From the NCBI RefSeq assembly GCF_001653335.1, contig NZ_CP015079.1:930001-994000 (forward strand): a stretch of 64,000 bases of DNA, given 5' to 3'. This stretch comes from Nocardioides dokdonensis FR1436 (GTDB lineage Bacteria; Actinomycetota; Actinomycetes; Propionibacteriales; Nocardioidaceae). Positions 4,562-64,000 of this stretch are shown one piece after another (positions within the stretch are counted from its first letter, which is position 1; the number at the start of each line of letters is the position of its first letter). The notes beneath the pieces were generated by a model, which was given only the letters and a program-made list of their open reading frames with translations, made no database searches and was not told the origin of the DNA. A program made the translations under genes and the position numbers.

Positions 4562-5242
4562 TCAGGCGGGGGTGGGCGCGGACGCCGAGCCGCCGCGCCC
4601 GCCGATGCGCCGCTGGCGCCACACGCCCAGCACCGTGAGCAGCACCAGCGCGACGACCGCCAGCACGAAGGGCAGCGACCCGGGCTCGGCGCCGAAGGCG
4701 CCGACCGCCACGTAGACCGCCGAGCCGGGGACGATGCCCAGCACCGTCGCGACGGCGTACGAGCGGGCGCGGACCGACGTCAGCCCGAAGGCGTAGTTGG
4801 CGGTGCTGAAGGGCACCAGCGGGATCAGCCGCGCCAGCAGCACGGTCGCGAACCCGTTGTCCCGGACCCGGGAGTCGAGGCTGGCGAAGCGGTGCCCGGT
4901 CAGGCCGCGCACCGCGTCGCGGCCCAGCAGCCGGCTGACGAAGAAGGCCGCGAGCGCTCCCAGCACCGCGGCGCCGAGCACGGCGGCCAGACCGGTGCCG
5001 AAACCCAGCAGCACGCCGCCGAGGATGGTCATCACCGCCGTGGGACCGGCGGGCAGCAGGCTGATCGCGGCGTACGTCGCCATGAAGGCCGGCACCGCCC
5101 AGGTGCCGAGGCCGTCGAGGGTCGAGCGCAGCTCGCCCTGGCTGGGCAGGCCCACGCTGAGCTGCAGCACCACCGCGGTGACGACGAGGCCCAGGAGCAC
5201 TCCCGCCTTGAGCAGCACACTGCGGCTGATCCGAGTCTTCAT
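4562..5242 (-). CDS. TVP38/TMEM64 (DedA-superfamily) membrane protein, 226 aa
   Basis: Polytopic membrane protein with the SNARE-associated/VTT domain: a proline/glycine re-entrant motif (LLPAGPTAVMTILGGVLLGFG), the conserved FVSRLLGRDAVR segment and FATVLLARLIPLVPFSTANYAFGLT. The family is related to DedA lipid translocases. The ATG at 5242 has GGAGGAG 8 nt upstream and overlaps the ABC ATPase stop (ATGA), making this the last gene of the ynj-like operon. The N-terminus is basic with one clear hydrophobic helix before the domain. The substrate is unknown; operon context suggests a phospholipid or precursor. Confidence 0.9.
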   Translation of the reverse strand: MKTRISRSVLLKAGVLLGLVVTAVVLQLSVGLPSQGELRSTLDGLGTWAVPAFMATYAAISLLPAGPTAVMTILGGVLLGFGTGLAAVLGAAVLGALAAFFVSRLLGRDAVRGLTGHRFASLDSRVRDNGFATVLLARLIPLVPFSTANYAFGLTSVRARSYAVATVLGIVPGSAVYVAVGAFGAEPGSLPFVLAVVALVLLTVLGVWRQRRIGGRGGSASAPTPA

Positions 5243-22924: not shown

Positions 22925-22991
22925 GCCTGCATGGTGCCACCCCGGACCCACCGGGCCGCCCCGGGCCTCGGCCCGGCACCGCCCACGGCGC

Positions 22992-23113
22992 GAGTCGGCC
23001 CGGATGTCGCGCCGACCCGGCGCAGATGTCGCGCCGACCCGGCCCGTACCTGCGTGCCTCACCGAGGTCAGGGAACTTTGGGCCGACTCACCAGGAGATC
23101 TGCGCCGACTCGC
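22992..23113. repeat. Dispersed intergenic repeat, site A
   Basis: Between DUF3151 and fba. It holds one perfect copy of a 22-nt unit at 23014-23035, identical to units in the tandem array at 54233-54342, flanked by degenerate copies. An 18-nt block at 23071-23088 is identical in reverse orientation at 33689-33706. Recurring pieces are GACCCGG, AGATGTCGCGCC and GGGAACTTTGGGCCGACT. Confidence 0.8.
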
Positions 23114-33637: not shown

Positions 33638-33750
33638 CCCGCCGACCCGGCCCACATATCCCGCTGACCCGGCCCATATATCGCGCCCAGTCGGCCCAAA
33701 GTTCCCCCGGCACATCCAGGCCGGGTCGGCGCGATATCTGGGCCGGGTCG
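33638..33750. repeat. Dispersed intergenic repeat, site B
   Basis: Fills the whole gap between the convergent aminotransferase and membrane-protein genes. It contains four degenerate copies of the 22-nt unit (variants with CACATATC, ATATATCGCG and ATATCTGGGCC) in both orientations. It shares an exact 18-nt block (33689-33706, reverse orientation) with site A. Confidence 0.75.
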
Positions 33751-34902
33751 TCAGGGGCGCCAGGTGCGGACAGCCGGTCGCAGCAGCAGGAAGAACGCAG
33801 CCGCGACAGCCCCGAGCGGGATCATCATGAGGACCCCGGCAAGCGGGGCCGTCGCGAAGCCGCTCACCGCGAACATGAAGAAGATGCCGGTGGCGGCTCC
33901 GGCGGAGACGGTCAGCGTCACGCGCGCCCACGCCACGCCGCGGAAGGCCAGGACGGCGAGCACAGACGCGACGAGGCTCCAGACCACCGACACAGCGGTC
34001 AGGAAGTAGATCCCCTGGGTGAGCGCACTCCAGCCGACCTCATCGACATCCGCCTGCAGATCCGGCTGCTGCGCCAACATCTCGCTGAAGTCCGACTGCG
34101 ACGTCACCGCGAGGGAGAGCGTCAACATCAGCAGCGCCAGCGAGACCAGGGCGCTCATGGCCCAGGTGAGCGCACAGGCCCACACCAGCTGGGCGGGGCG
34201 GCGCTGGCGGCGGGTGGCGTGCGTGCCGGGGGGCGGGGCGCCCTGCTGGCGCGCGGCCTCCGGACTGCCGAACCCGGGGTACGCCGCCGGGCCGGGCTGG
34301 TCGTGCGGTGCCTGCTGGCCGTGGGGGGGCGGGCCCTGCGGGGCCGGCGGCGCCCACGGCGCGGACGACCCGACCGGCTGGTGCTCCCGGTCGGTGGACG
34401 GTGTCGTCGCAGCGGCCGACGCCTTGGGCTCCCGCGCGCGCAGCGTGCCGTCGGGGTTGAAGCGCTCGGGCAGCGGCTTGCCGGCGAACCAGGCGCGGGC
34501 CGGCTGCAGCCACAGCATCACGATCGCGGCGGCGACCAGCGCCCCCATGAACCCACCGGTGAAGGCGCCGGTGACGAAGAGCGGCACGGCGAGCACCGAG
34601 AGCAGCACCCGGGAGGCGCGCGAGCGCTGGAGCACCTGGATGCCCAGGATCGCGGCGGCGGTCGCGGCGGCCGCGGCGATCATCGCCAGCACCCGCAGCA
34701 TCTCGATGACGCCGTTCACCGAGAGCCCCAGCCCGTCGGCCGGGGGGTCCGCGAGCAGCGACTCGACCCGCTCCCGGGTCTCGAGCGAGCCGGTCGAGGC
34801 GACCTGGTCGAAGGCGGACACGACGACGAAGACCGAGCCGAGGATGATCAGCCAGGCCGCGACGGTCACCTGCCGGGGGCGGGCGGGAGCCTTGTCTGAC
34901 AT
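33751..34902 (-). CDS. Multi-pass membrane protein with Pro/Gln-rich linker, 383 aa
   Basis: About eight hydrophobic segments in two groups: residues ~12-145 and ~240-375. They are separated by a low-complexity Pro/Gln/Ala linker (WAPPAPQGPPPHGQQAPHDQ) of about 80 residues that is probably cytoplasmic. No enzymatic motif is recognised. The ATG at 34902 has GGTGGAATGGAG upstream. The 3' end borders a dispersed repeat; the gene is divergent from the DoxX-like gene. Function unknown. Confidence 0.75.
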   Translation of the reverse strand: MSDKAPARPRQVTVAAWLIILGSVFVVVSAFDQVASTGSLETRERVESLLADPPADGLGLSVNGVIEMLRVLAMIAAAAATAAAILGIQVLQRSRASRVLLSVLAVPLFVTGAFTGGFMGALVAAAIVMLWLQPARAWFAGKPLPERFNPDGTLRAREPKASAAATTPSTDREHQPVGSSAPWAPPAPQGPPPHGQQAPHDQPGPAAYPGFGSPEAARQQGAPPPGTHATRRQRRPAQLVWACALTWAMSALVSLALLMLTLSLAVTSQSDFSEMLAQQPDLQADVDEVGWSALTQGIYFLTAVSVVWSLVASVLAVLAFRGVAWARVTLTVSAGAATGIFFMFAVSGFATAPLAGVLMMIPLGAVAAAFFLLLRPAVRTWRP

Positions 34903-38238: not shown

Positions 38239-39753
38239 GTGACAACCTGGGCCGGCGCGCCTGGCGCCAGCACGACCGCCAGCACGACTGCCAGCACGAC
38301 CGCCAGCACCACCACACGCACAGGCGCCCGCGCGGCGCCGCGCGTCGTGATCGTCGACGACACCGACGACCTGCGCGAGCTGCTGCGGATGGTCCTCACC
38401 CGGGGCGGGTACGACGTCGTCGGCGAGGCCGGCCACGGGCGGCAGGGCATCGAGGTGGTGCGGGAGACGCGGCCCGACCTGGTGCTGCTGGACCTGTCGA
38501 TGCCCGGGATGGACGGCCTCGAGGCGCTGCCCTCGATCCGGCGCAGCGTGCCGGACGCCACGGTCGTGGTGCTCTCCAGCTTCGGCGCCCCGCAGATGTC
38601 CGAGCGGGCGCTGGCGATCGGCGCCCACGGCTACGTGCAGAAGGGCGCCTCGCTCGAGTCGATCCTCACCTACGTCGACACCCTGACCTCCCGCGGTCCC
38701 GGCCCCCGCGCGCGCACTGCGCCTCCCGCACCGCCGTCACCGGGAGCGGCCACGACGATCTCGTGGTGGCAGGCGCTCAGTGCCGCACCGATGGGCATCG
38801 TCGAGCTGGCGGACGAGCCGCTGTTCCGCATCGTCTTCGCCAACCCCGCCGCGCAGCGGCTGCTGGGCGGCACCTCCAGGACCGGCACGCCGCTGGGCTT
38901 CGCGTCCGCCCCGCTGGCGAGCCTGGTGGCCTACCACCGCCTCGATGACGATGCGACGTTCGAGGTCGAGCTCGACGGCGCCTCGGTGCGGGCGACGATG
39001 CGGCGTACGGGGTCGTCGCTGCTGGTGTTCCTCGACTCCGCCCGCGACGACGTGGGGATGCTGCGCCGCGCGATCGCGACGACGGCCCAGGAGGTCCGCG
39101 GACCGGTCGCGGTGATCTGCGGGATCGCCGAGGCCCACGAGTGGGACGACGACGACCTGGGGCCGGAGGCCCGCTCCCGGCTGATGACCTCCGTGGCCCG
39201 ACAGGCCCGGGTCCTCGACACGATGACCGCCGACCTGGTCACCGCCGCCCAGGTCCAGGCCGGCACGCTGCGTGCGGAGCTGCGCCCGGTCCGGGTGGAT
39301 GCGCTGGTCGCCTCCGTGGTCGACGACCGGCACCGGGGCGACGCCGACCCGCCCGTGGAGGTGCGCGTCGACGACGGGCGAGCGGTGCGAGCCGACCCGT
39401 CCAGGCTGCGGCAGATGGTCGGCAACCTGCTGACCAACGCGCTGAGGTACGGCCGCGCACCCTTCCTGGTGCACGTGCGCGGCGACGGCGACCGGGTCTG
39501 CATCGACGTGGTCGACCACGGGCCGGGGGTGGACGAGGCGGTCCGGTCACACCTCTTCGGCGAGTTCACCCGCGCCGCGGGGGCGGTCACCACCGGCACC
39601 GGGCTGGGGCTGTACGTCGTCCGCGCCCTCGCCGAGGCGCAGGACGGCTCGGTCTCCTACGAGCCGGGCCGCTACGGCGGCTCGGTGTTCACGATCTCCC
39701 TGGCAGCGGTCCCGGCGCCACCACCCCGCGACCCGGCGCAGATGTCGCACTGA
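38239..39753 (+). CDS. Hybrid response regulator - degenerate histidine kinase, 504 aa
   Basis: Receiver domain first (about residues 35-150): acidic pocket VIVDDTDD, phospho-acceptor D85 in LVLLDLSMPG, and Lys in GYVQKGAS. A PAS-like segment follows (~175-260), then a HisKA-like helix pair and an intact HATPase domain (N-box NLLTNALRYG, G1 DHGPGVDEA, G2 GTGLGLYVV). The H-box reads AQEVRGPVAVI: the autophosphorylated His is Gln (Q284). The N-terminus carries four STTA repeats. The last residues DPAQMSH and the stop come from a dispersed repeat. The GTG at 38239 has GGGAGGGG upstream. Confidence 0.85.
   Translation: MTTWAGAPGASTTASTTASTTASTTTRTGARAAPRVVIVDDTDDLRELLRMVLTRGGYDVVGEAGHGRQGIEVVRETRPDLVLLDLSMPGMDGLEALPSIRRSVPDATVVVLSSFGAPQMSERALAIGAHGYVQKGASLESILTYVDTLTSRGPGPRARTAPPAPPSPGAATTISWWQALSAAPMGIVELADEPLFRIVFANPAAQRLLGGTSRTGTPLGFASAPLASLVAYHRLDDDATFEVELDGASVRATMRRTGSSLLVFLDSARDDVGMLRRAIATTAQEVRGPVAVICGIAEAHEWDDDDLGPEARSRLMTSVARQARVLDTMTADLVTAAQVQAGTLRAELRPVRVDALVASVVDDRHRGDADPPVEVRVDDGRAVRADPSRLRQMVGNLLTNALRYGRAPFLVHVRGDGDRVCIDVVDHGPGVDEAVRSHLFGEFTRAAGAVTTGTGLGLYVVRALAEAQDGSVSYEPGRYGGSVFTISLAAVPAPPPRDPAQMSH
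38266..38313 (+). repeat. Four tandem 12-nt repeats in the N-terminal coding region
   Basis: GCCAGCACGACC repeated four times with small changes, encoding (Ser-Thr-Thr-Ala)4 just before the receiver domain. In-frame units of this kind can vary in number between strains. Confidence 0.8.
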
Positions 39754-39800
39754 CCCGGCGCACAGGTACGCCGGGTCGGATGGATGTTCGGGCCGGGTCA
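39730..39800. repeat. Dispersed intergenic repeat, site C
   Basis: Matches 19 of 22 positions of the repeat unit at 39730-39748, then GACCCGGCGCACAGGTACGC and an inverted copy up to 39798. The kinase stop (39751-39753) and the hspR stop (39798-39800) are both TGACCCGG-type sequences of the repeat, so it forms the ends of both convergent genes. Confidence 0.75.
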
Positions 39801-40238
39801 GCGCCCGCGGCGCCACACGACCAGGGAGCCGGAGGCATCGGGGGCGCGCAGCACCGGGAGCTTGTTGGGCGCCAGCTCGCCGCGGCGTACGGCGACGGCC
39901 TGGCGCAGCGCGGCCCGGGTCGCCTCGAGCTCGGCCACCAGCTCCTCGTTGCGCACCGACAGCGCCAGCACCTGGTTCTCGAGGTCGAGGATGCGGCGCA
40001 CGCCCTCGATCCCGATCCCGGCGCCGGAGAGCGCGGCGATCTCGCGCAGCTTCTCGATGTCGCGCGTGGAGTAGCGGCGCCCGCCGCCCCCGGTGCGCCC
40101 GGGCGTGATCAGGCCCAGGCGCTCCCAGGTGCGCAGCGTCTGCGGGTGCAGCCCGGTGAGCTCGGCGGCCACCGAGATGACGAAGACGGCGGCGTCGGGG
40201 TGGGCGTCACCGAAGGGGTTGCCCGACCGCCCGACCAT
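39798..40238 (-). CDS. hspR: HspR, MerR-family heat-shock repressor, 146 aa
   Basis: MerR-type helix-turn-helix (FVISVAAELTGLHPQTLRTWERLGL, in part AAELTGLHPQTLRTWERLG), wing motif GRRYSTRDIEKLREI and a coiled-coil dimer helix. It represses the dnaK operon and clpB through HAIR sequences, usually with DnaK as co-repressor. The ATG at 40238 overlaps the dnaJ stop by one base, the standard last position of the actinobacterial dnaK operon. The basic C-terminus VVWRRGR is usual for HspR. Confidence 0.96.
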   Translation of the reverse strand: MVGRSGNPFGDAHPDAAVFVISVAAELTGLHPQTLRTWERLGLITPGRTGGGGRRYSTRDIEKLREIAALSGAGIGIEGVRRILDLENQVLALSVRNEELVAELEATRAALRQAVAVRRGELAPNKLPVLRAPDASGSLVVWRRGR

Positions 40239-54172: not shown

Positions 54173-54232
54173 GGTCGATCACCGATCCAGGTTTCCAGCC
54201 GCCCGACCCGCACGCGACCTATTTGCCGGGTG

Positions 54233-54342
54233 GGCGCGACATCTGCGCCGGGTCGGCGCGACATCTGGGCCGGGTCGGCGCGACATCTGCGCCGGGTCAG
54301 CGCGACATCTGCGCCGGGTCGGCGCGACATCTGGGCCGGGTC
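54233..54342. repeat. Tandem array of five 22-nt units (dispersed repeat, site D)
   Basis: Five near-perfect units at 54233, 54255, 54277, 54299 and 54321. The parts are GCGCGACATCTG, then C or G, then GCCGGGTC. The P450 stop (54341-54343) is built from the last unit. The unit also occurs, inverted, at sites A and C. It fills most of the gap between the P450 and MFS genes. Confidence 0.9.
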
Positions 54343-55768
54343 AGCGGCGGGCGACGTGGATGCGGGCGCCGTCGCGGGGCACCGAGGTGATGTTGCGGAC
54401 CTTCGGCCCATCGGCGACCGGGGTGGTGACGTCGTGGACGCGCAGCACCTCGCGCAGCACCGCGACCCCCTCCATCTGGGCGAAGCCGGCGCCGATGCAG
54501 CGGCGTACGCCGCCGCCGAACGGGATCCAGGTGTTGGTCGGCGGGTGCTGGCCCAGGAACCGCTCGGGACGGAAGGCGTCGGGGTCCGGGTGGTGCTCGG
54601 AGCGCTGGTGGGCCACGATGATCGAGGGGCCCACGGTCGTGCCGCGGGGCAGGTCGAGCCCGCCGATGGTGGCGGGGCGCACCAGCGTGCGCACCACCAT
54701 CGGGATGACCGGGTGCAGCCGCATCGACTCCTTCATCACCGCCTCGAGCCACGCGTCGTCCTCGGGGGTGGTGCCGTCGGCGGCCTCCTGGCTTCGGCGC
54801 AGCAGCGCCGGGTCGCGGCCCAGCTCGTAGAGCGCCCAGGAGAGCGAGGTCGCGGTCGTCTCGTGCCCGGCCAGCAGCAGGGTGACGAGCTGGTCGCGCA
54901 GCTCGGTGTCGGTGAGCCGGTCGGACTCGTCGGTGCTGCCGGCACCGTGGCGGATCAGCCGGGAGAGCACGTCGCTGCGCTCCGCGAGGTCCGGCGCCGC
55001 ACGCCGCTCGCGGATCTCGGCGTAGATCAGCCGGTCGAGCTCGGCCTGGTTCTGCACGGTGCGGCGCCACGGCCCGAAGCGCTGCAGCGCCGGGTAGCCC
55101 CAGCCGAGCAGCACCGCGGGACTGATGTCGACCGTCGCGTTGACCCGCGGTCGCATCGCGGCCAGGCGCCGCTCGTCGGTGACCCCGAAGACCACGCGCA
55201 GGATGACCTCGAGGGTCAGCACGTTCATCCGGTCCAGGGCCCGCAGGGTGACCCCGTCCGGCCAGTGCGCCGCCTCGTCGGCGGCGAGGTCGGTGACCAG
55301 CGAGCGGTACTCGCGCAGCGCGGCCCCGTTGAAGGCCGGCATCAGCAGCTTGCGGGCCCGCTGGTGCTCGGCGCCGTCCTGGAGCAGCAGCGAGTGCTCC
55401 CCCATCACCGGCCCCAGGATCGCGTTGCCCTTGCCGGCGTGGAACACCGCCGGGTCGGCGGCGAAGATCTCCTTGGTGTGCTCGGGACGCGTGAAGAACA
55501 CCAGCGGTCGGCCCCCCGGGACCAGCCGCACGGTGAAGACGTCGCCGTAGGTGCGGTGCAGGTAGGGGTGGAACCAGTGCCGGAACCGCATCAGCGCCGC
55601 GCTCTGCACCAGCACCGGCCACCGCGGCCCCGGCGGCAGCCCGTCGAGGTCGACCGGCGGCAGGTCCGCGCTGCCCACCGAGGCCCCGCTCATCCGGCGG
55701 AACCGCTCCTGGGTCAGGTCACCTGTCTCGGGCAGTGCGTCGAGCTCGGCGATCTGAGAAGTGGCCAT
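54341..55768 (-). CDS. Cytochrome P450, 475 aa
   Basis: Heme-thiolate monooxygenase. The I-helix oxygen motif is LLLAGHETTATS, the K-helix is KESMRLHP, the PERF-type region is FRPERFLG, and the heme loop is FGGGVRRCIGAGFA with ligand C424. The length and style resemble CYP110/CYP102-like or mycobacterial bacterial P450s; the CYP family cannot be fixed by eye. The ATG at 55768 follows TAGTAT by 5 nt. Needs ferredoxin and reductase not encoded nearby. Neighbours suggest lipophilic substrates. Confidence 0.94.
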   Translation of the reverse strand: MATSQIAELDALPETGDLTQERFRRMSGASVGSADLPPVDLDGLPPGPRWPVLVQSAALMRFRHWFHPYLHRTYGDVFTVRLVPGGRPLVFFTRPEHTKEIFAADPAVFHAGKGNAILGPVMGEHSLLLQDGAEHQRARKLLMPAFNGAALREYRSLVTDLAADEAAHWPDGVTLRALDRMNVLTLEVILRVVFGVTDERRLAAMRPRVNATVDISPAVLLGWGYPALQRFGPWRRTVQNQAELDRLIYAEIRERRAAPDLAERSDVLSRLIRHGAGSTDESDRLTDTELRDQLVTLLLAGHETTATSLSWALYELGRDPALLRRSQEAADGTTPEDDAWLEAVMKESMRLHPVIPMVVRTLVRPATIGGLDLPRGTTVGPSIIVAHQRSEHHPDPDAFRPERFLGQHPPTNTWIPFGGGVRRCIGAGFAQMEGVAVLREVLRVHDVTTPVADGPKVRNITSVPRDGARIHVARR

Positions 55769-60241: not shown

Positions 60242-61414
60242 CTACTGGGGGACGCCGGCGCGGTAGACGTCGCGCACCAGCGGCACCCCGGGCCGGTAGG
60301 CCAGGTGCACGTGGCTGGGCGCGTCCAGCACCACCAGGTCGGCCCGTCGGCCCGCCACGAGCGCCCCGACGTCCTCGCGGGCCAGGGCCCGGGCCCCGCC
60401 CAGGGTCACCGCGCGCACCGCCTCGGCGGGCGTCATCCCCATCTCGCGGACCGCGAGCGCGACGCAGAACGGGATCGAGCTGGTGAAGCACGAACCGGGG
60501 TTGCAGTCGGAGGCGAGCGCGACCTGCACGCCGGCGTCGAGCAGGGCGCGGGCGTCGGGGTAGGGCTGGCGGGTGGAGAACTCCACGCCCGGCAGCAGCG
60601 TGGCGATGGTGCCGCTGTCGCGCAGCGCGTCGACGTCGGCGGCGTCGAGGTGGGTGCAGTGGTCGACCGCGACCAGCCCCAGCTCGCAGGCCAGCTGCAC
60701 CCCCGGGCCGGGACCGAGCTGGTTGGCGTGCAGGCGACCACGCAGGCCCACGGCGGCGCCGGCCTCGAGGACGGCCCGGGCCTGGTCGGCGTCGAAGGCG
60801 CCGCGCTCGCAGAACGCGTCGATCCAGCGGGCGTGCGGCGCGGCGGCCTCGAGCATCGGGCCGGTGACCAGCGCGACGTACGCCGCCGGGTCACCCGCGT
60901 GCTCGGGGGGCACGACGTGGGCGCCGAGGAAGGTGGTCTCCTCGGTGAGCCGGCGGGCCACGGCGAGCGAGCGGGCCTCGTCGTGGACGCTGAGTCCGTA
61001 GCCGCTCTTGATCTCGACGGTGGTGGTGCCCTGGCGGCGCATCTCCGCGACGAGCCCAGCGGCGTGCGCCAGCAGCTGCTCGTCGCTGGCGGCCCGGGTG
61101 GCGGCCACCGTGGTGCGGATGCCGCCGGCGGAGTAGCTCTCGCCGGCCATCCGGGCCGCGAACTCGGCCGAGCGGTCGCCGGCGAAGACCAGGTGGCTGT
61201 GGCTGTCGACGAAGCCGGGCAGCACCGCCCGCCCGCCGAGGTCGACCGCGGCGTCGGCGGCGGGTGCGTCGGCGGCCGCACCGACCCAGGCGACGTGGTG
61301 GCCCTCGATCACCACCGCGGCGTCGTGGACCAGCCCGAGCACACCGCCCTGCTCGAGGCGGGCGGGGTCGTTGGTGCTCAGCTCGGCGATGCCGGTCAGC
61401 AGGAGCGAGGCCAT
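60242..61414 (-). CDS. hutI: Imidazolonepropionase, 390 aa
   Basis: Third step of histidine degradation: imidazolonepropionate to formiminoglutamate. Amidohydrolase fold: metal motif [31 protein letters not shown] and the final Asp in ASDCNPGS. Length is typical. The ATG at 61414 overlaps the hutF stop (TGATG). Last gene of the visible hut cluster. Confidence 0.96.
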
Positions 61415-62808
61415 CAGGAGTCCTTCCAGAGCCGGTCGATGACGGTGGCGAGATCGCGCCCGATCTCGGGCAGCCGGTCGCGGGTGTGCACGAGGCGACC
61501 GTCCACGACGACCTGCGTGACGTCGGCACCGGTGGCAGCGAACACCGCGGTGTGCTCGTCGGCGCCGGTGCCGGCGGTGCGGGGGCCGACGGTGTCGAGG
61601 GTGACCAGGTCGGCGCGGGCACCGACCCGGAGGGCTCCGGCGTCGGCGAACCCGAGCGCGTCGTGGCGCAGCCCCGCCTCCAGCAGCTCGGCGCCCGCCC
61701 AGTGCCCGCGACGCCGGCTGACCAGCCGCTCGTCGAGCTCGACCGCCCGCATCTCCTCGAAGAGGTCAACCACGGCGTGGCTGTCCGAGCCCAGCGTCAG
61801 CGCGCTGCCGGCCTCGTGGAGCGCCCGGGCCGGTCCGACGCCGTCGCCGAGGTCGCGCTCGGTGGTCGGGCAGAAGCACGCGCGGGTGCGGCTGGTGCCG
61901 AGGGCGCGCACGTCGGCGGCGTCGAGGTGGGTCGCGTGCACGGCGGAGGTCGCCGGGCCCAGCACCCCCGCCTCGGCCAGCACCTGCGTGGGCGAGGCGT
62001 CGTACGCCGCTCGGCAGGCGTCGTTCTCGGCGACCTGCTCGCTGAGGTGCACGTGCAGCGGCCGCCCGCGGGCCGCCTCGACGACCGTCGGGAGCTGGTC
62101 GCGGGGCACGGCGCGCACCGAGTGCACGGCCGCGCCGACGACGACGTGGTCGTCGGCGCCGGTGGCGGCGTCGAGGGCCTCGACCCGCTGGGCCCACCGA
62201 TCGGCGTCCCCGTCGGTGTAGCGGACCTGGGCTCCCTCGACCGGGGCACCGAACCCGGAGGAGAGGTAGCAGGTGTCGAGCAGCGCGATCCGCAGCCCGG
62301 CACGGCGCGCGGCCTCGACCAGCACCAGGCCGGTCTCGTTGGGCTCGGCGTAGGCCCGGCCGTCCGGGGCGTGGTGCAGGTAGTGGAACTCCCCGACCGT
62401 CGTGATCCCGACGGCCACCATTTCGCGGTAGAGCGCCGTGGCCAGGTCGAGGTGGTCGTCGGGGTCCAGCCGACCGGCCAGGTCGTACATCTGCTCGCGC
62501 CAGGTCCAGAACGTCCCGCCCCCGCGCTGGGTGCGCCCCCGCAGCGCCCGGTGGAAGGCGTGGCTGTGCTGGTTGGCCAGGCCGGGGAGGGTGAGGCCGG
62601 GGACCCGCGCGGTTTCCCCGGGTACCCGGGGAAACCGTAGGCGAGAGGGTGTTGCAGCACCCGAACCCCTACGGGATCCCCCCAACGCCTCGACCCTGGT
62701 GAACCGGCCCGCCTCGATCTCGACCAGGACGTCGTCCACGACCCGGTCCTCGACCCAGGCGCGCTCGAGCAGGTACGACGACACCGGCCCACTCACCGGC
62801 CCACTCAC
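61414..62808 (-). CDS. hutF: Formimidoylglutamate deiminase, 464 aa, with in-frame palindromic repeat
   Basis: Converts formiminoglutamate to N-formylglutamate plus ammonia. Amidohydrolase motifs: [13 protein letters not shown] (metal H-x-H), [15 protein letters not shown] and GSDSHAVV. The start is one of four in-frame GTGs; GTG 62808 is chosen because it overlaps the upstream stop (GTGA). Between the N-terminal strand (RFTRVE) and the VPGLTLPG motif it carries about 27 residues, where about a dozen are usual. This part is encoded by a palindromic repeat (residues ~44-67), also present between genes at 46717. Function is probably kept since all catalytic motifs are downstream. Confidence 0.93.
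62610..62680. repeat. Palindromic repeat inside the hutF coding sequence
   Basis: A 28-bp perfect palindrome (62610-62637, identical to palindrome A at 46717-46744), a 9-nt spacer and a B-like core (62647-62662, one change), followed by a decayed third part. The reading frame stays open throughout, encoding about 24 residues of Arg/Gly/Pro-rich sequence ([19 protein letters not shown]). Confidence 0.9.
62785..62808 (-). repeat. Tandem 12-nt repeats at the hutF start
   Basis: Two copies of GTGAGTGGGCCG followed by GTG make three evenly spaced in-frame GTG codons (62808, 62796, 62784), so the exact start is ambiguous by up to 8 residues. Confidence 0.7.
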
Positions 62809-64000
62809 CGGCACAGCCGCTCGAGGGTGTCGGCGAGGGCGTCGACGCCGACCAGGCAGTCGGGCACCGTCGCCGACTCGGCCGGGGAGTGCGAGACGCC
62901 GGAGGGGTTGCGCACGAACAGCATCACCGTGGGGATGCCCGCGGTCGAGAGGACGCCGGCGTCGTGGCCGGCCTGGGTGGGCAGCACCGGCCAGTCGCCG
63001 ACAGCGTGGTCGCCGGCGACGTGGCGGGCCAGGGCGGGGTCGAAGGTCACCAGCCCGGACACGGACTCCGCGACCACCCGCACCGCGGTGCCGTCAGTCT
63101 CGGCGCGCTGCTGGGCCCGGCGCTCCACGGCGGCGACGAGCTCGGAGAGCGCGGCCTCGTCCTCGCAGCGGGCGTCGAGCCAGCCGGTGACCCGCGAGGG
63201 CACGGCGTTGGTGCCGTTCGGCTCGACCTCGATCCGGCCGAACGTGGCGCGGGCCCCGGTGAGACGGGCCTGCTCGTCGGCCGCCAGCGCCGTCATCGCG
63301 TAGGTGAGCATCGGGTCGGCGCGGTCCTCCATCCGCGTGGTGCCGGCGTGGTCGGCCGTGCCGGTCATCTCGAACCGGTAGCGCCCGTGCGGCCAGATCC
63401 CGCTCGCCACCCCGATCGCGTGGCCCAGGTCGACCAGCGCCCGGCCCTGCTCGACGTGCAGCTCCACGAACGTGGTCACCCCGGCCAGCAGGTCGCGGGC
63501 GTCGCCGGCGCCCGGGTCGAGCCCGGGCAGGTCCACCGCGGCCAGCGCGTCGGGCAGCGCCACCCCGTCCCGGTCGCGCAGCTCGCGCGCGTGCTCCCAG
63601 GTGGTGGCCCCGGTCAGCAGCCGTGAACCCAGGCAGGCCAGCCCGAAGCGCGAGCCCTCCTCCTCGACGAACACCGAGACCCCGATCGGGCGCGAGGGCA
63701 CCACCCCGCGCTCGCGCATCCGGTCCACCGCCGCGAGCGCGGAGACCACGCCGAGGGGGCCGTCGTACGCGCCGCCGTCGAGGACGGAGTCGAGGTGCGA
63801 GCCGGTCAGCAGCCGCTCGTCAGGCCGGGTCGCGTGCTCCTCGCCCCACCAGCCCACGAGGTTGCCCAGGCCGTCGCCCTCGAGGCGCAGCCCCCGGGCG
63901 GTGCAGGCCTCGACGAACCACGACCGCAGCTCGCTCTCGGCCGTGCGGAACGGCTGGCGGAAGTAGCCGCCGCTCTGCGCCGAGCGTCCCACCGGGCTGA
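62805..64000 (-). CDS. Allantoate-amidohydrolase-family (M20) hydrolase in the hut operon (N-terminus cut)
   Basis: Dinuclear-zinc amidohydrolase related to AllC, N-carbamoyl-amino-acid hydrolase. Metal ligands: GSHLDSV, GAYDGPLG (Asp), VEEEGSRFG, LHVEQG and the late His in TQAGHDAGVLS. The start is beyond the window (frame stays open to 64000). Its stop overlaps hutF's GTG. In actinobacterial hut clusters this family sits where HutG (N-formylglutamate hydrolase) is expected, so it probably deformylates N-formylglutamate; that activity is inferred. Confidence 0.85.
   Translation of the reverse strand, partial: SPVGRSAQSGGYFRQPFRTAESELRSWFVEACTARGLRLEGDGLGNLVGWWGEEHATRPDERLLTGSHLDSVLDGGAYDGPLGVVSALAAVDRMRERGVVPSRPIGVSVFVEEEGSRFGLACLGSRLLTGATTWEHARELRDRDGVALPDALAAVDLPGLDPGAGDARDLLAGVTTFVELHVEQGRALVDLGHAIGVASGIWPHGRYRFEMTGTADHAGTTRMEDRADPMLTYAMTALAADEQARLTGARATFGRIEVEPNGTNAVPSRVTGWLDARCEDEAALSELVAAVERRAQQRAETDGTAVRVVAESVSGLVTFDPALARHVAGDHAVGDWPVLPTQAGHDAGVLSTAGIPTVMLFVRNPSGVSHSPAESATVPDCLVGVDALADTLERLCR

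Follow-up and report, generated by a model that had tools for sequence, protein, structure and literature searches.

A dispersed double-hairpin repeat within hutF of Nocardioides dokdonensis and the predicted AbiEi-Vsr gene bracketed by its copies

Introduction

The REP/REPIN-RAYT systems of bacteria, according to the accessible sections of PMC2817692, consist of short palindromes dispersed mostly outside genes and a low-copy gene situated between two inverted copies, and one genome may hold several such gene-repeat families. The repeat described here, from Nocardioides dokdonensis FR1436 and its relatives, resembles those systems in all of these features and differs from them in several respects. 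First, the partner protein is predicted to combine AbiEi-type and Vsr-type folds and is not a Y1 HuH (IS200/IS605-like) transposase. Secondly, the unit is a double hairpin whose axes are 31 nt apart. Third, the central hairpin begins with GTAG, the tag tested, in just 2 of 39 aligned copies. Lastly, the repeat occupies in-frame sites in hutF and pabB recurrently.

The Rickettsia palindromic elements, described in the consulted parts of PMC10969869 and PMC3733652 as in-frame palindromic repeats in protein genes, are the nearest parallel for the in-frame insertion and were compared by description. The present repeat differs from them in that most of its copies are intergenic and in that it has a partner gene.

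Vsr enzymes and homing endonucleases cut DNA. The C-terminal domain of the partner protein is predicted to share the fold of the Vsr-fold homing endonucleases (EDxHD, I-Bth0305I). Unlike in those enzymes, the domain is joined here to an AbiEi-type domain, giving a putative nuclease, and the gene is bracketed by inverted hairpins that also have dispersed non-autonomous copies. The predicted N-terminal fold resembles that of the AbiEi antitoxins of type IV toxin-antitoxin systems, which bind inverted repeats according to the available portion of PMC7319586. The partner differs from these antitoxins in carrying a nuclease-type domain and in being encoded alone between the elements.

This study was concerned with a window of 64,000 nucleotides from the N. 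dokdonensis genome and with the copies of one of its palindromes in other Nocardioides genomes.

Results and Discussion

The hairpin element in the window and in the source genome

The hutF gene (formimidoylglutamate deiminase; Amidohydro_1) lies at 61414 to 62814 on the minus strand and remains open through the insert. The 28-bp palindrome CGGTTTCCCCGGGTACCCGGGGAAACCG is found within this frame at window positions 62610-62637 and forms the outer hairpin of the in-frame element, with a stem of 11-12 bp and a loop of 4 nt. It is followed by a central hairpin (62637-62672) with a 16-bp layout, in which 11 of 16 pairs form in the hutF copy, and by a partial third arm (62673-62689) that looks like a single central-hairpin arm with the linker. 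A sequence-only reading of the window had noted the same palindrome in hutF and between genes at 46717, each with 9-nt spacing to a second palindrome. Both palindromes are exact and the spacing is real, with the central hairpin as the second palindrome. The twin at 46717-46744 belongs to a full intergenic element (46717-46806) with outer, central and outer hairpins, its variant second outer copy lying at 46780-46805 and 62 nt separating the outer copies. The orthologous place is empty in one of the two nearest relatives (G013) and occupied in the other (G062).

The 26-bp core of the palindrome matched three places in the window at up to 3 mismatches (0 in 100 shuffles) and 16 places in the complete 4,376,707-base genome (reversed-pattern control, 0), so the palindrome, whose presence elsewhere in the genome mattered to the idea of a mobile element, is there. 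The central hairpin pattern matched 11 places (its control, 0). When the outer and central patterns were combined, 13 loci of the hutF-type family were recognized in N. dokdonensis (G000). Three of these (976718, 1100983 and 1965473) have the full outer-central-outer form, their outer copies again separated by 62 nt; a lone outer hairpin is present at 69000, and the remainder are double hairpins. The geometry of the element is an outer 11-bp stem and a central 16-bp stem with axes 31 nt apart, a spacing that recurs across species and that we take to be about three helical turns. Two of the 13 loci are in frame, one in hutF (992611) and one in a pabB-like Chorismate_bind gene (1100983), and both are translated in the same frame (...ATPxRLRxPRVPGET...).

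No Rfam family matched the 64-kb window above its gathering score, and a known RNA family for the repeat was set aside within the window on that basis. As a separate observation, the window contains direct repeats whose period is 22 nt (CGCGACATCTGxGCCGGGTCGG-like), at 22991-23043, 33643-33773, 39729-39803 and 54191-54366.

Spread across the genus and genomic placement

A covariance model was built from 39 repeat copies, in which 87.5% of stem cells are paired, compared with at most 54% when the stems are slid, and in which both sides have changed at 25 of 27 pairs. Matches at E<=1e-4 were found in 193 of 215 Nocardioides genomes. At most 25 stretches were scored per genome. In G000, the model gives at least 28 matches, compared with the 13 loci above, because a single copy can match in either orientation and members of other families are matched as well. 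G062 also has a double-hairpin family whose sequence (AGTTTCATCGGCCGACCGATGAAGCT type) is quite unlike that of the present one and whose axes are likewise 31 nt apart (L234, G062:C105:45001-65000, positions 4747-4839).

Fifty-five high-scoring loci from many genomes were placed relative to genes. By tblastn, eight were within hutF (5) or pabB (3), a count in which hutF is favoured because the repeat model (R2) was trained partly on hutF inserts, and 47 were elsewhere; two loci at which a doubtful called frame spans a copy (L237 and L268) were excluded from the in-frame count. Thus, most copies are intergenic and the repeat is REP-like rather than gene-invading in the manner of Rickettsia. The likeness to Rickettsia palindromic elements proposed in the sequence-only reading therefore survives for the in-frame insertion and not for the gene-invading habit. 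With a simple gene caller, the 47 loci fell between convergent genes (18) or tandem genes (28), none fell between divergent genes and one was unplaced.

Absence from divergent intergenic regions (0 of the 46 placed copies) would be expected if the hairpins were selected transcription terminators or mRNA-stability hairpins and the hutF copy a chance capture. We regard this explanation as highly improbable. Selection on RNA pairing is unsupported, as G-U cells are not above A-C cells in the stems of dispersed copies (57 and 49 of 2808 cells; difference not significant). The hutF mRNA strand gave a similar result (G-U 10 and A-C 19 of 459 cells; difference not significant). Thus, the like counts point to DNA rather than RNA palindromes, and selection on the stems at the RNA level was rejected, G-U not being in excess. 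In addition, a terminator inside hutF or pabB would presumably be harmful, and the nuclease gene described below would be left unexplained.

In-frame copies in hutF

HutF of N. dokdonensis is 85% identical to that of G013 and 86% identical to that of G062. The segment before 'PGL' has 32 residues in the window HutF and 15 in both relatives. The repeat is in frame within hutF, the frame is open and the insert is part of the encoded protein sequence, as the sequence-only reading had described; its figure of about 24 residues agrees with the approximately 25 residues that the element encodes but not with the net gain, which is 17 residues relative to the two relatives. That the insert is ordinary HutF sequence, a possibility raised at the same time, was rejected because the nearest relatives are without it and because inserts track the repeats of their own genome. 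In the predicted HutF model, residues 47-65 have pLDDT values below 50 and form a loop between strands 37-43 and 69-77.

An in-frame element is present at the same site in 25 of 77 distinct HutFs, a proportion that is not a genus frequency because the 30 genomes sampled for HutF were picked mainly for having repeats. The insert label was assigned by segment length and hairpin layout. Two decayed inserts (L071 and L192) were scored as insert-bearing, and 23 of 77 remain without them; two long segments without the hairpin layout (L132 and L193) were scored as having no insert. Ten HutF rows whose C-terminal parts were identical to another row were dropped, anchors failed in some rows, and L068 (G123) and L213 are absent from the HutF tree. 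No stop codons were found in the 25 insert segments. Pairing in the hutF-insert stems is maintained, with changes on both sides at 21 of 27 pairs and 82% of cells paired, compared with at most 51% when slid. The interpretation given in the sequence-only reading was incomplete in this respect, since the insert is not species-specific and the same hutF site holds species-specific versions in many species.

A second in-frame site in pabB

A search of 29 genomes gave pabB orthologues in 27, and with those of G000 and G141 added the set comprised 29 sequences. An in-frame element is present in 13 of these 29, in the linker before the chorismate-binding domain, again a proportion that is not a genus frequency because the searched genomes were picked mainly for having repeats. 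The elements are found there in both orientations. The insert is absent from pabB of G013.

Resemblance of inserts to the repeats of their own genome

Each hutF insert was compared with further repeat copies drawn from the same set of genomes (20 in all, with 1 to 11 copies from each); copies L030 and L053 were excluded from the similarity tests. Over 62 nt, 14 of 18 inserts ranked the dispersed copies of their own genome first, as did 13 of 18 when only the central hairpin was used. The mean best identity was 51.4 of 62, compared with 39.6 when permuted, and none of 20000 permutations, which ignore phylogeny, was as high. Among the exceptions, the inserts of G147 and G194 resemble the hutF insert of a sister species, that of G060 belongs to a repeat family common to G147 and G188, and that of G183 was unmatched. 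For pabB, 7 of 12 testable inserts ranked the copies of their own genome first among 41 genomes; the exceptions were those of G060, G137, G008 and G010, and that of G062, for which its own copies came second to those of its relative G000.

In addition, the copies at two orthologous sites differ in step. In G062, the copies at the end of an aldo/keto reductase gene (L228, 4194-4286) and at pabB (L225, 2945-3037) have AAATTT at the tip of the central hairpin, and the G000 copies at both orthologous sites have TTGCAA there, with conserved flanks. This swap of tips at two sites hints at concerted change.

A single ancient in-frame insertion into hutF, overwritten by gene conversion in each genome and not followed by repeated insertion, is a serious possibility, to which we give somewhat less than an even chance. 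It fits the 14 species in which the hutF segment is exactly 96 nt and aligns gap-free, with the outer axis scoring best at one shared column in all 14 and the central axis in 10 of 14 (within the top three in the rest). It also fits L138, which was scored as having no insert and retains VSPADRRNP, a remnant-like sequence resembling the start of the G060 insert, and the clustering of the insert label on the HutF tree (12 changes compared with 21.3 in shuffles). However, the insert state requires at least 12 changes on that tree, 8 of them forced by strongly supported branches, the element of N. speluncae (L111) is in the opposite orientation, and pabB holds both orientations. From the own-genome resemblance, these tree changes and the N. 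speluncae orientation, it follows that the same hutF spot has been refilled or overwritten, and lost. Repeated insertion and gene conversion may both act at hutF. The single-insertion explanation bears on the history of hutF and not on the two-part system considered below.

Identity of the partner gene

In six genomes (G000, G062, G200, G160, G050 and G194), oppositely oriented copies of the element were found approximately 1.1-1.3 kb apart, and the genes enclosed by these pairs are homologues of one protein, with 41-84% identity to the G000 copy. A homologue also adjoins a copy in G123 (L048). The G000 unit is at 901584-902884 and is present in G062 and missing in G013. The decisive feature, a gene bracketed by the same element that occurs in hutF, lies beyond the window. 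One further inverted pair, in G170 (L377, G170:C1:338700-341400), has copies 730 bp apart that enclose an unrelated 169-aa gene, and may represent element ends carrying other cargo.

The G000 protein has 324 aa, and members of the family have approximately 320 residues. NCBIfam provided no useful name. The N-terminal part matches AbiEi_4, above the cut-off in 2 of 5 proteins, and the PADLOC AbiEi models score in all five proteins scanned. In the predicted structure (pLDDT 85.5), residues 12-203 align to AbiEi (6y8q, Z 11.3) and residues 208-321 to the homing endonuclease I-Bth0305I (3r3p; Z 11.0, rmsd 2.7, 97 residues); the model also aligns to Vsr (1cw0, Z 9.6). The other entries in the structural lists (nucleotidyltransferases, general nucleases and some unrelated proteins) contained no closer family. 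On this predicted model, the partner is an AbiEi-type N-terminal DNA-binding part followed by a C-terminal fold of the Vsr/EDxHD homing-nuclease type. Within the genus, 192 of 215 genomes have a match to the family at E<=1e-30, with 1-6 per genome; across the order, 261 of 391 genomes, representing 30 of 40 genera, have one at E<=1e-40.

Association of the repeat with the AbiEi-Vsr gene

The association was examined at the best-scoring 30 AbiEi-Vsr loci, one per genome, which are not a random draw. An element was found within 175 bp on both sides of the gene at 20 of 30 loci, which is too close for the unit to contain a second gene, and on at least one side at 27 of 30. Nineteen of the 20 pairs are inverted, with the outer hairpins pointing outward. 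Control hutF loci had an element on both sides at 0 of 55 and on at least one side at 1 of 55. When the seven loci that had suggested the idea were removed, both sides were occupied at 13 of 23 loci, all inverted, and at least one side at 20 of 23. A further 20 loci examined at looser thresholds had elements on both sides at 14; among them, the gene has no neighbouring scored element in G009 and G205, and the only one scored in G099 is distant.

A second approach did not assume the sequence of the element. Of 78 distinct loci, 70 have an inverted repeat with a score of at least 18 across the gene (63 of 71 once the seven idea-suggesting loci are removed), compared with 0 of 58 hutF controls and 1 of 1000 random windows; a clear inverted repeat is lacking at the other 8. 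These counts include 14 loci from three other genera of the family, of which 13 have an inverted repeat and only 4 scored for the exact double-hairpin layout on both sides.

The flanking copies also match the dispersed ones. After the gene-flanking copies L004, L015, L104 and L105 were removed from the dispersed set, dispersed copies in 12 of 13 genomes ranked the gene-flanking copies of their own genome first among 35, and none of 20000 permutations, in which phylogeny is ignored, was as good. Likewise, 9 of 12 hutF inserts ranked the gene-flanking copies of their own genome first. AbiEi-Vsr paralogues within one genome have different flanking repeat families. The pairing of gene and repeat is illustrated by G013, which is missing both the first unit and the family-1 palindromes (0 found) and has both the second unit and the repeat family of that unit; the idea that G013 is repeat-free was rejected, as it has its own repeat family.

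Across the genus, 22 of 215 genomes are repeat-less and 23 of 215 are gene-less at E<=1e-30, with two of the former and three of the latter deduced from gaps in the result lists. The gene is missing in 12 of the 22 repeat-less genomes and in 11 of the 193 others (Fisher 3.5e-8, a value that ignores phylogeny and assembly quality). Eleven genomes (for example, G020, G086 and G125) have repeats and no AbiEi-Vsr match at E<=1e-30; thus, the gene is not needed for the repeats to persist. Ten repeat-less genomes have an AbiEi-Vsr match, six of them weak (E 1e-32 to 1e-42).

A regulatory explanation would make the AbiEi-type protein a regulator or antitoxin-like autoregulator and the palindromes its sites, spread by ordinary recombination. 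AbiEi antitoxins autoregulate through inverted repeats in their own promoter, in the available part of PMC7319586, and the gene-flanking and dispersed copies match each other. Nevertheless, we consider this explanation quite unlikely, given that the gene has inverted copies on both of its sides, that the simple gene caller placed no copy between divergent genes, and that in-frame copies in hutF and pabB would be poor operators.

Mobilisation by RAYT or IS200 proteins was rejected for want of Y1_Tnp (PF01797), which matched one of 215 genus genomes (G148) and none of the G000 sequence; controls matched in 5 of 14 named genomes. The one match (L214, G148:C78:12861-13172) is in a fragmented assembly that is 86% complete with 5% contamination. 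The elements could instead be MITEs moved by an unidentified conventional transposase, with the AbiEi-Vsr gene as cargo or as a hitch-hiking defence gene. A gene between inverted ends does look like a small transposon, the PADLOC scores would suit a defence gene, and the L377 pair surrounds a different gene. We nonetheless judge this unlikely, as the ends enclose members of one gene family in one species after another and the repeat families differ, and the Y1 class, which is the class searched, is nearly absent.

A proposed two-part system

We think it probable that the hutF palindrome is a copy of a mobile, non-autonomous double-hairpin repeat that depends on the AbiEi-Vsr gene bracketed by its relatives. 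The geometry and abundance of the repeat, the inverted pairing around the gene, the match of flanking to dispersed copies and the recurrent in-frame occupancy of hutF and pabB are the observations on which this reading draws; from them we infer that the AbiEi-Vsr protein copies or moves the repeats. We read the whole as a two-part system of REP-RAYT-like organisation with an unrelated, nuclease-type protein.

The system might operate as follows. A genome would hold one or a few AbiEi-Vsr units, each with its own repeat family, and the repeats of a species would as a result look alike and turn over together. The AbiEi part would recognise the palindromes of its own family, the nuclease part would nick or cut these sites, and the repeat would then be copied onto other copies or into new sites through repair or template switching. 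Recognition, cutting and copying by repair would thus yield both concerted turnover and new insertions. In-frame copies would persist only in flexible loops of a protein that can accommodate them.

There is perhaps an even chance that the system represents a new class of selfish DNA, in which an AbiEi-Vsr nuclease copies palindromes ('cut and copy', not transposase-driven) under a convergent REP-RAYT-like organisation, and which has spread through Nocardioides and its relatives, repeatedly re-occupying in-frame sites in hutF and pabB and being translated there. It is taken as a new kind because the partner protein is unrelated to RAYT; on a stricter view, it could be a variant of the REP-RAYT kind. 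Searches of open-licence PMC papers yielded nothing on palindrome-flanked AbiEi, DUF559 or Vsr genes or on such repeats in Nocardioides.

If the proposal is true, the puzzle posed by REP-RAYT systems, that of tiny palindromes persisting by means of a low-copy gene, would have been solved a second time and independently, here with an antitoxin-like DNA-binding domain fused to a homing-nuclease fold. The proposal may explain the role of some actinobacterial AbiEi-like genes. In addition, a repeat that re-enters the same two protein genes in frame in many species allows tests, in free-living bacteria, of how palindromes turn into protein sequence.

Lastly, one G000 copy (L017, G000:C1:1924150-1925340) adjoins a stretch that is missing at the matching place in G062, where the unaligned portion is 169 nt compared with approximately 1283 nt in G000. 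Thus, repeat copies may mark the breakpoints of deletions or insertions.
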